Shown: in pieces, positions 744 through 2,218 of the stretch | How the letters are laid out: the number at the start of each line of letters is the position of its first letter | Numbering within the stretch: the stretch's first letter is position 1 | From: a virus | Length of the DNA: 26,963 nucleotides | IMG/VR virus record: IMGVR_UViG_3300030328_001922 | Location: 1-26,963 of that record | Direction: 5' to 3' (one strand) | Translations under genes and position numbers: made by a program | The notes under the pieces: model-generated | What the model saw: the letters and a program-made list of their open reading frames with translations, nothing else | Told to the model about the DNA's origin: nothing | Database searches by the model: none

Positions 744-772
744 ATCATACATCCGATCAGTTGGTCTGTCTA
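744..772 (-). promoter_or_regulatory. Sigma-70-type early promoter
   Basis: On the minus strand TAGACA (767-772) and TATGAT (744-749) are separated by exactly 17 bases, each one mismatch from the -35 and -10 consensus. Transcription would start near 737, about 20 bases before the ribosome site and ATG of the 63-aa gene. In T7-like phages host-type promoters drive the first genes to enter the cell, which matches the position after the genome-end region. Confidence 0.65.
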
Positions 773-845
773 TTCATCTTGTGCAGGTTTGTGAACTGTA
801 CCATGTCAGCTTGACAAGGCGACGCGCAACAGATGCTCACATTTG

Positions 846-867
846 AAAACGATAATCATTATCATTT
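846..867. promoter_or_regulatory. Fur/Zur-box-like palindrome, copy 1
   Basis: Contains GATAATCATTATC at 851-863, a perfect 6-1-6 inverted repeat. It resembles the classical Fur consensus (GATAATGATAATCATTATC) and the cyanobacterial Zur consensus (TGATAATNATTATCA). It lies about 80 bases upstream of the -35 of the early promoter. Binding by a host Fur-family repressor is inference. Confidence 0.5.
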
Positions 868-877
868 CAGGTTAACC

Positions 878-896
878 GCTCGCGCTTCGCGCTCGC
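878..896. repeat. GC-rich hairpin repeat, copy 1
   Basis: GCTCGCGCTTCGCGCTCGC with an inner GCGC-TTC-GCGC hairpin (882-892). On the other strand this contains GCGAAGC, a sequence known to form an unusually stable mini-hairpin. It stands out sharply from the AT-rich surroundings and recurs at 942-960 (inverted) and 992-1010. Confidence 0.7.
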
Positions 897-913
897 TCGT
901 CGCGCGTATGGAA

Positions 914-930
914 ATGATAACCATTATCAT
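914..930. promoter_or_regulatory. Fur/Zur-box-like palindrome, copy 2
   Basis: ATGATAACCATTATCAT, a perfect 7-3-7 inverted repeat (ATGATAA/TTATCAT). It shares GATAAYCATTATC with copies 1 and 3. It starts 65 bases after copy 1 (core to core). Confidence 0.5.
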
Positions 931-941
931 CCGTGCCATCA

Positions 942-960
942 GAGCGAGCGAAGCGAGCGG
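942..960. repeat. GC-rich hairpin repeat, copy 2 (inverted)
   Basis: GAGCGAGCGAAGCGAGCGG is the reverse-oriented form of the GCTCGC-CTTCG-GCTCGC unit and holds GCGAAGC at 948-954. Being inverted relative to copies 1 and 3, it could pair with either over about 8-10 bases, so alternative folds of the whole block are possible. Confidence 0.65.
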
Positions 961-975
961 GCATCAAATGAAAAC

Positions 976-988
976 GATAACCATTATC
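976..988. promoter_or_regulatory. Fur/Zur-box-like palindrome, copy 3
   Basis: GATAACCATTATC, identical in its 13-base core to copy 2. It lies 60 bases after it and is preceded by AAAAC as in copy 1. Five of the six arm pairs match around the centre. Confidence 0.45.
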
Positions 989-991
989 ACC

Positions 992-1010
992 GCTCGCACT
1001 TCGTGCTCGC
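992..1010. repeat. GC-rich hairpin repeat, copy 3
   Basis: GCTCGCACTTCGTGCTCGC with an inner GCAC-TTC-GTGC hairpin (996-1006). Relative to copy 1 both members of one base pair have changed (G-C to A-T), keeping the stem intact. This compensatory change suggests that the folded form is what is selected. Confidence 0.7.
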
Positions 1011-1150
1011 TTCTTAAATAATATTTAGTGAGGACACTATGTAATAATAATAAACAATTAATTACAATTAGTTTGTAATAAGAATTAATTAATAAATAAA
1101 ATTACAGCTGCTAAGTAATAACAATTGCTAAAAATAATATCATTAAGTAT
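1011..1150. other. AT-rich non-coding segment, possible genome-end or replication region
   Basis: Almost pure A/T with TAAT and AATTAATT runs and a perfect 7-bp inverted repeat, ATTACAA (1061-1067) and TTGTAAT (1073-1079), with a 5-base loop. No credible gene lies here. It sits between the late terminator and the repeat block. Such easily melted sequence would suit a replication origin or the terminal repeat of a T7-like genome, but I cannot see the repeat boundaries. Confidence 0.4.
1017..1040 (-). promoter_or_regulatory. Candidate phage RNA polymerase promoter (T3-like core)
   Basis: The minus strand at 1024-1033 reads CCTCACTAAA, which matches ten consecutive positions of the T3 phage promoter core (CCCTCACTAAAG). 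The initiation bases differ. It lies between the late terminator and the early genes, where T7 keeps its genome-end promoters (phi-OL/phi-OR). I saw no second good copy in the window, so this may be chance. Confidence 0.25.
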
Positions 1151-1214
1151 AAAGAAAAAGCCCGAGACCCCTTGCGGGGGAATGGATCTCACACTCATAA
1201 ATGAGATAGGCTTC
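1151..1214 (-). terminator. Structured terminator at the end of the late transcript
   Basis: Read on the minus strand, AAGCC (1209-1213) pairs with GGCTT (1158-1162), closing a three-way junction. One arm is ATCTCA/TGAGAT (1186-1191 with 1202-1207). The other is CCCC-GCAA-GGGG (1168-1179), with a GNRA-type loop. A CTTTTTC tract follows immediately. It begins 12 bases after the stop of the last small late gene, so termination of the long late transcript is the simplest role. The branched shape is unusual for an intrinsic terminator. Confidence 0.6.
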
Positions 1215-1225
1215 ACAAAATTATG

Positions 1226-1390
1226 TCAAATTTTTACAGCTTCTCTTGCCTCTTGGAAGGTATTATGGAAGACACAAGACCCCAGGTAACACCCTAGATA
1301 ACGTTCAAACGTTCTTTTACCTCCTTCAAGGTCATATAAATGAATTGTAGCTCCCTGTGGACTCGTATAAACTAGTTTTGGCTTTCTCAT
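1226..1390 (-). CDS. Small hypothetical protein, 54 aa
   Basis: An ATG-to-TGA frame on the minus strand, beginning MRKPKLVYTSPQGATIHLYD and ending in a helical EAREAVKI tail. The composition is protein-like, with beta-type segments followed by a helix, and it contains two cysteines. No ribosome site is visible before the ATG, and I do not recognise the family. It lies between the 48-aa membrane protein gene and the structured terminator, so it would be the last gene of the late transcript. Confidence 0.45.
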   Translation of the reverse strand: MRKPKLVYTSPQGATIHLYDLEGGKRTFERYLGCYLGSCVFHNTFQEAREAVKI

Positions 1391-1452: not shown

Positions 1453-1599
1453 TTAATTAATTTTCTTACTGATTTCTTCAATAGTTTCTACCATCTGTCT
1501 GTAGCCAGTACCTACATATATCTGCCCGATCAATACAGAAATAGTAGCTAAACCCCAGAATATGTAATAATATCCTGATTTAACTTGATGTTTCCGCAT
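1453..1599 (-). CDS. Small membrane protein, 48 aa, overlapping talC
   Basis: Starts at an ATG inside the last codons of talC (20-base overlap, different frame). It has a short basic N-terminus (MRKHQVK), one membrane segment (about residues 9-30, including YYYIFWGLATISVLIGQIYV) and a charged C-terminal helix. This layout and the YYYIFWG motif look like small single-pass proteins I associate with cyanophages, though I cannot name a function. Coupled translation with talC is likely given the overlap. Confidence 0.65.
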   Translation of the reverse strand: MRKHQVKSGYYYIFWGLATISVLIGQIYVGTGYRQMVETIEEISKKIN

Positions 1600-2218
1600 G
1601 ATCCTTATTAAATTGAGCTATACCTGCATCTGTTAGTACATGTTTGTACATTTTATCAAACACTAAGGGAGGTAAGGTACAAATATGAGCACCATTATTA
1701 AAAGCTTTACCTACGGATTGAGGATCACGTATAGAAGCTGCTAATATTTGAGTATCAGATAAATCCAAACTTGCGATATCTTTAATTAGTTTTAAACCGT
1801 CTAAAGAGTTATCATCCATCCTACCAACAAAGGGTGATATATAAGAAGCACCCGCTAAGGACGCTAGAATCGCCTGTGACGCGTCAAAGATCAAAGTAAC
1901 GTTAGTACGTACCCTTTGCTTATTAAACAGCGTACAAGCCTTTAAACCCTCAACTGAGCAAGGTAGTTTAATAGTCGATGCAGCAGGGAACCGTTCAGCC
2001 AGTATCATACCAGAATAATACATTCCATCTGCAGTATCTTCTACAACTTCCATACTAATATCGGGAATACCCATATCGTATAGTTCTGTATAGATATCTA
2101 TAGGTTTATTTCCACTTCTTTTTATCAAAGTAGGGTTAGTGGTTACCCCAGCTATTAATCCAGTATCGAATCTCTTCTTTACTTCATCTATAACAGCTGT
2201 ATCTAAAAATAGTTTCAT
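1580..2218 (-). CDS. talC: Transaldolase, short FSA/TalC type
   Basis: Cytosolic pentose-phosphate enzyme that transfers dihydroxyacetone units between sugar phosphates. Cyanophages carry this host-like metabolic gene, and it is thought to steer carbon toward NADPH and ribose for phage DNA synthesis. Counting from the ATG at 2218 (212 aa), visible family features are LFLDTA with Asp6, TTNPT with Asn28, the Schiff-base lysine in STIKLP at Lys84, TNVTLIF (105-111) and SPFVGRMDD (128-136). Length fits the short TalC class. A longer frame opens at a TTG at 2257, but family proteins start at MKLFLDTA, so I use 2218. No clear ribosome site is seen. It follows terL after a gap of about 185 bases containing a long hairpin, and overlaps the next small gene. 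Confidence 0.93.
   Translation of the reverse strand: MKLFLDTAVIDEVKKRFDTGLIAGVTTNPTLIKRSGNKPIDIYTELYDMGIPDISMEVVEDTADGMYYSGMILAERFPAASTIKLPCSVEGLKACTLFNKQRVRTNVTLIFDASQAILASLAGASYISPFVGRMDDNSLDGLKLIKDIASLDLSDTQILAASIRDPQSVGKAFNNGAHICTLPPLVFDKMYKHVLTDAGIAQFNKDHAETSS

Follow-up and report, generated by a model that had tools for sequence, protein, structure and literature searches.

Candidate operators for the host zinc regulator Zur inside the terminal repeat of T7-like cyanophages

The DNA analysed here (the window) is the whole of a 26,963-base linear viral record from a T7-like cyanophage, whose terL protein is 89.3% identical to that of Cyanophage NATL1A-7 and whose nearest neighbour in a terL tree is the metagenomic locus L098 (92%). 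Minus-strand late genes run to talC, the same strand carries small early ORFs below position 717, and an array of palindromic boxes and GC-rich elements occupies the space in between (Table 1). No zinc gene is seen among the ORFs neighbouring the array in the window. An IMG/VR search with the first small early ORF yields 3 pattern matches, none of them a relative by tblastn; tblastn of this ORF and of ORF 35-241 against the phage collection, and blastn of 720-1240 against phages, give no matches. Because these searches came back empty, comparison of the array with its relatives is based on flanking anchors, with no alignment of the array itself.

Table 1. Features around the genome junction of the window
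Feature	Position	Strand	Evidence or remark
First small early ORF, 63 aa	526..717	-	tblastn relatives in L055, L021/L022; L019 weakly
Early sigma-70-like promoter TAGACA-17-TATGAT	744..772	-	10/12 positions; -35 start 62 nt from repeat boundary
ATCTGTTGCG, directly outside right boundary	825..834	-	T7: ATCTGTT at 161
Inferred direct terminal repeat, 371 bp	835..1205	.	present once, at genome junction; by anchors from P-SSP7, S-TIP37 and T7 ends
Zur-like box 1 (core 851-863)	843..865	+	15/16 of RegPrecise cyanobacterial Zur 23-mer; nearest right repeat boundary; exact core
GC-rich element ACCGCTCGCGCTTCGCGCTCGCT	875..897	+	counterparts in terminal repeats of relatives
Zur-like box 2 (core 916-928)	908..930	+	14/16 of Zur 23-mer; exact core
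GC-rich element, inverted; + strand reads AGCGAGCGAAGCGAGCGGGC	943..962	-	pairs with neighbours when 870-1015 is folded
Zur-like box 3 (core 976-988)	968..990	+	14/16 of Zur 23-mer; exact core
GC-rich element ACCGCTCGCACTTCGTGCTCGCT	989..1011	+	sequence and composition
Terminator-like palindrome GAGATCCATTCCCCCGCAAGGGGTCTC near left end of repeat	1164..1190	-	sequence; T7 has CCCCCATAGGGGG at 26
Left-boundary anchor TGACATAATTTTGTG + AAGCCTAT	1206..1228	-	same 15-mer + 8 nt precedes P-SSP7 and S-TIP37 repeats
talC (transaldolase)	1580..2218	-	final large late gene before terminal repeat; phrog_440 9.8e-81, PF00923 3e-37

Each box has an exact palindrome at its core (GATAATCATTATC in box 1, GATAACCATTATC in boxes 2 and 3); these are the sole exact matches in the window, none arises in 100 shuffles of it, and the spacings of 65 and 60 bases between cores that had been reported for them hold. 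Sites matching at least 14 of the 16 specified positions of the cyanobacterial Zur 23-mer (consensus NTNANAATGATNATCATTNTNAN, as set out in the Methods of PMC9337993) are, in the window, boxes 1-3 only. The segment 845-1011 was also said to differ strongly in base composition from the phage around it, and roughly it does (50.3% GC vs 36.0% for the window; 8 of 1340 sliding windows get as high). The GC-rich elements are not, one by one, the hairpins for which they were first taken: their two GCTCGC arms form a direct repeat, and when the three elements are folded singly, 150, 180 and 40 of 200 shuffles, respectively, fold at least as well. The middle element is indeed inverted, neighbouring copies being mutually inverted with boxes 2 and 3 placed between them, and 870-1015 folded as single-stranded DNA reaches -31.7 kcal/mol (z -2.53; a level attained by 3 of 200 shuffles) by element-to-element pairing with the inverted neighbour.

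The window holds a single genome junction in a linear fragment, and its terminal repeat has been placed by homology. The terminal repeat of T7 is 160 bp long, so that ATCTGTT at position 161 directly follows it. The S-TIP37 record has an exact 150-bp repeat that ends at the junction of CACACGCG with ATCTGTCGC and starts 8 nt after TGACAAAAATCTCTG; in the record of P-SSP7, whose ends have been sequenced and whose repeat is 206 bp long (PMC3350473), the end lies at the junction of GTTAAGCG with ACCTGTTGC and the start 8 nt after TGGCAGAAATGTCTG. PMC11617373 describes ATCTGTT as the sequence of class II terminators for T7 RNA polymerase and places terminators of this kind in the concatemer junction of phage DNA. 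The window has both marks of a T7-type repeat, ATCTGTT just outside the right boundary and the conserved left anchor. Since the two anchors put the repeat at 835-1205, the whole array lies inside it, with box 1 about 8-15 nt from the right boundary. Location at the genome end, a secondary suggestion of the first-pass annotation, thus turns out to be more central than was thought there; the placement upstream of the early promoter also stands, with about 70-77 bp between the minus-strand promoter (772-744) and the nearest box (promoter-like sites within 600-1300 number 4, vs 2.4 in shuffles). As in T7, the repeat has a C5..G5 palindrome close to its start and is followed at once by ATCTGTT. Unlike T7, cyanophages often add GC-rich elements and Zur boxes to the repeat; we know of no such host boxes in T7.

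Terminal repeats of relatives were collected from loci picked by talC similarity, by the GC-rich element (among the matches listed) or as named phages and, the window excepted, without use of the box motif. (What this means operationally is that most of the phage loci were fetched by the GC-rich element, and that counts of boxes describe this sample, not cyanopodoviruses at large.) Six of 116 anchor pairs fall outside 130-460 bases and were left out, among them those of L138 and L170, which are possibly true long repeats; the remaining 110 anchor-defined repeats form 59 clusters. Two of these, on the minus strands of L116 and L080 (best 9 and 7 of 12), are false anchors and were dropped from the analyses of the Zur 23-mer, of GC-rich elements and of position, which refer to 57 clusters. 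P-SSP7, S-CBP3, S-CBP4, P-SSP3, S-TIP37 and MedDCM S28-C3 stand outside the scored set. The loci encode a relative of the T7-like terminase, of talC or of the RNA polymerase (L176 only ThyX; L110, L197 and L214, of 1.7-2.0 kb each, have no match to T7-like proteins), and their terminases are mostly 73-92% identical. GC-rich elements of the form CGCTCG..GCTCG, with the inverted CGAGC..CGAGCG, are found among the matches listed in the inferred terminal repeats of 47 of 57 clusters, which is no measure of prevalence because many loci were fetched by that element. In relatives they are often paired, 37-72 bp apart, and perhaps serve repeat duplication or concatemer processing.

Of the 59 clusters, 19 (or 18 of 58 if the window is set aside) have a box that matches TGANAATNATTNTCA at 11 or more of 12 positions, and the other 40 do not; 200 shuffle sets give 0.025 such clusters on average. 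A perfect 12/12 box is present in 12 clusters, vs none in shuffles. The concentration in the repeat is steep: 22 such sites lie in 13.9 kb inside repeats and 8 in 690.7 kb outside them in the same loci, a 137-fold difference in density, and perfect sites are divided 12 to 0. The Zur 23-mer at 14/16 or better behaves likewise, with 16 sites inside repeats and none in 635 kb outside, and is present in 12 of 57 clusters (0.01 by shuffling). A motif-free search for shared palindromes ranks TGAGAA-N3-TTCTCA and GAGAAT-N-ATTCTC first, with 5 clusters each.

Within the repeat the boxes favour two places. Five clusters have a box 4 nt from the right boundary and seven have one at 10-15 nt from it; eight clusters, three of them at 10/12 only, have a box 5-7 nt from the left boundary, and L101 and L237 have boxes at both edges. 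Of the 22 sites at 11/12 or better, 17 are within 20 nt of a boundary vs 4.0 expected, a test that kinship makes too generous since four of the five 4-nt clusters belong to one clade and the fifth to a neighbouring one. On a terL tree of 54 rows (four clusters had no usable terL), box presence needs 13 changes, at least 10 being forced for the box-free group by well-supported branches, which implies that boxes have been gained and lost repeatedly. The label used on the tree is looser, admitting left-edge boxes at 10/12 as well as host-type 16-mers that have at most one mismatch. Recurrence in close relatives, on which the first-pass annotation had staked the array, is accordingly found in part. 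L098 and NATL1A-7 lack a box; L012/L013, L223 and L076 of the same tree set carry boxes. (L012, L223 and L076 are carriers under the looser label and are outside the 19 of 59.) L012/L013 and L223 combine two or three host-type boxes with the same GC-rich elements as the window. Among the 8 named phage records scored, S-RIP1 is the sole carrier (TTTGAGAATGGTTATCATTA, 36 nt from the boundary; host per record, Synechococcus sp. WH8101). The terminal repeats of NATL1A-7, P-SSP2, S-RIP2, P-GSP1, S45-C4, DSL-LC07 and S-B28 have no box at 11/12 or better, and none is seen by eye in P-SSP7.

A scan for ACAGAT followed at 0-30 nt by a box returns at least 120 stretches; the loci read from it, among the matches listed, have repeat anchors at 11 places, 8 of them at spacing 4. 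When 15 other or doubtful loci are checked by tblastn, 2 are T7-like (L412, L167) and 13 are not, and the pattern of boxes in the repeat is claimed for T7-like cyanophages only. Fur/Zur-type boxes 5 nt from ATCTGT (for example TGAGAATGATTCTCATTAGCATCTGT) also occur on L381, L389, L391 and L407, contigs in which tblastn finds neither a terminase nor a polymerase of T7-like type. Six further viral contigs (L005 2956-3236, L006 2919-3107, L007 4093-4356, L008 30-109, L009 2071-2313 and L010 8846-9113), from which matches to T7-like proteins are absent, have arrays in which GATAATCATTATC-type boxes number from two to eight. L005 and L008 have genes for a terminase large subunit and major head proteins, L006 and L007 for a terminase and L010 for a transposase, and in L006/L009 a 54-bp unit containing the box is repeated.

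The counterpart of the motif in picocyanobacteria, as plausible hosts, points to zinc. Upstream regions match at 11/12 or better for 13 of 20 zinc-type znuA genes, 0 of 30 futA/idiA genes and 1 of 30 genes of a Mn-like znuA paralogue; the Zur 23-mer at 13/16 or better gives 16/20, 0/30 and 0/30, respectively. (The ZnuA family splits in two, its top-scoring members being the Mn-like ones that lack the Zur 23-mer, 0/30, and the 20 zinc-type loci were hand-picked from lower in the match list.) At a looser 10/12 the counts are 18/20, 7/30 and 2/30, the 7 futA/idiA matches indicating that sites of the Fur family overlap. The first-pass proposal of host metal-repressor sites therefore survives in its Zur part and not in its Fur part. 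The exact 15-mer is found in 41 of 121 genomes of the picocyanobacterial family, at 67 sites vs 17 for a reversed control (a tally), so that some of it is chance background; 10 of 15 regions opened around exact sites, hand-picked from the 67, have a ZnuA, ABC-ATPase or CobW gene adjoining, and of the other five sites one runs into the beginning of an ORF that has a Crp-like domain, one is inside an ORF and three have no assigned neighbour. Of 201 host-family genomes, 9 contain the window-type variant GAAAACGATAAYCATT, with 13 copies in total and none of the reversed control, and one copy adjoins a gene for a ZnuC/AztA-like ATPase; of 7 ORFs beside such sites, one is a clear ABC ATPase, two match ABC or CobW proteins weakly and four match nothing. 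No Fur-family protein is encoded in 9 phage records, the window included (several are fragments); a phage-encoded Fur or Zur was rejected for that reason, and host Zur is the expected binder.

Computation thus supports the identification of the motif as the picocyanobacterial Zur box, concentrated in the terminal repeats of T7-like cyanophages with a preference for both boundaries. Judged by sequence, the array of the window probably consists of three operators for the host zinc regulator inside the direct terminal repeat; in the proposed reading these operators would go together with zinc-dependent events at the genome ends. Both on the linear genome as it enters the cell and on concatemers during replication, zinc-loaded host Zur would occupy the repeat and form an obstacle next to the place where terminase cuts and the ATCTGTT site where polymerase pauses. 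On right-edge boxes it would also stand some 40-150 bp upstream of the early promoter. The zinc status of the host could in this way control early transcription, the movement of polymerase across the junction, and cutting and packaging. Action at the genome end is favoured because perfect boxes are confined to the repeat and because the left edge is used too; that the main effect is exerted there, as against early-promoter control or titration, is put forward tentatively. The more specific notion that Zur can be thought of as a terminal DNA-binding factor, sitting a few bp inside the repeat boundaries and gating terminase cutting, junction pausing or the fate of linear ends as a metal-responsive, repeatedly evolved checkpoint on genome maturation, is speculative and rather doubtful.

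The alternative that fares best, though somewhat unlikely, is that Zur bound upstream activates or represses the first promoter used by host RNAP, the boxes being terminal simply because that is what lies upstream of this promoter. Sigma-70-like promoters (9/12 or better) follow the right edge in 31 of at most 57 clusters, the window among them, at a median of 62 bp to the -35 element, a count that stands without a shuffle control; two of the eight sites outside repeats (L083 and L120, 11/12) are 127 nt past the right boundary, near the early promoter and the start of the gene; bmtA is activated by SynZur and has a second box past the -35 element (PMC9337993); and cyanophages use host PhoB boxes at their promoters (PMC10976474). 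Promoter control does not account for the absence of perfect sites outside the repeat, nor for the left-edge group of boxes, which is 149-347 nt from the right boundary and adjoins the late genes at their 3' end. None of the boxes in the window overlaps the minus-strand promoter, and a weak plus-strand match (836-865, 9/12) overlapping box 1 is within shuffle expectation.

The many repeats in replicating DNA might instead act as decoys that sequester Zur, so that zinc uptake by the host (znuABC, cobW) is derepressed. The likeness of the sites to host operators at znuA and cobW-type genes would suit titration, as would the three boxes of the window and the presence of the terminal repeat at both ends of the virion genome. 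This is unlikely as the main effect: 16 of the 19 box-bearing clusters have a single site at 11/12 or better, and titration leaves the concentration in the repeat and the preference for boundaries unexplained. Less likely still is that the boxes are packaging or replication signals for a phage protein, terminase or an initiator, resembling Zur boxes by chance; location inside the repeat and at its boundaries, in a T7-like layout, is what such signals would be expected to have, but most repeats lack a box and the box turns over among phages with closely similar terminases, and the match extends to the zinc promoters of the host. Fur (iron) sites are the least probable reading, for although the two kinds of box overlap, the E. 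coli Fur consensus is matched by eye at 16-17 of its 19 positions, and some futA/idiA regions match at 10/12, these regions are empty at the stringent thresholds at which zinc-type znuA is well represented.

The candidate Zur operators share their motif, at 14-15 of 16 positions, with the cyanobacterial Zur regulon (SynZur, znuA/znuC, bmtA) as described in PMC9337993, where host sites control zinc genes; the phage sites are instead at genome ends. Among the papers listed by literature searches, none deals with Zur/Fur (zinc-regulator) boxes in phage terminal repeats. The nearest precedent is the host PhoB box in cyanophage promoters (S-PM2d; pstS of P-SSM2), which (PMC10976474) likewise places the sites of a host stress regulator on a cyanophage. 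There the signal is phosphate and the sites are in individual gene promoters; here candidate zinc-regulator sites lie in a T7-like terminal repeat, often at its boundaries. If the preferred reading of Zur operators with zinc-dependent genome-end events is true, exploitation of host regulators would extend from phosphate to zinc, a host transcription factor would be stationed at viral DNA ends, and ocean zinc chemistry would be directly linked to infection by T7-like cyanophages. A cultured carrier of the box exists (S-RIP1), and SynZur has been purified and assayed (PMC9337993).

Two minor observations concern other conserved sequence. In the inferred terminal repeats of L077, L082, L092 and L145 there is a second shared palindrome, GATACG-N4-CGTATC, in some cases about 20 bp from a Zur-like box. 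On the host side, a conserved stretch, CACTCAAGCGAAAACGATAACCATTTGTC, occurs in varying orientation, with no identified gene adjoining, in four host-family genomes (L493-L496) and is possibly a further Zur target.
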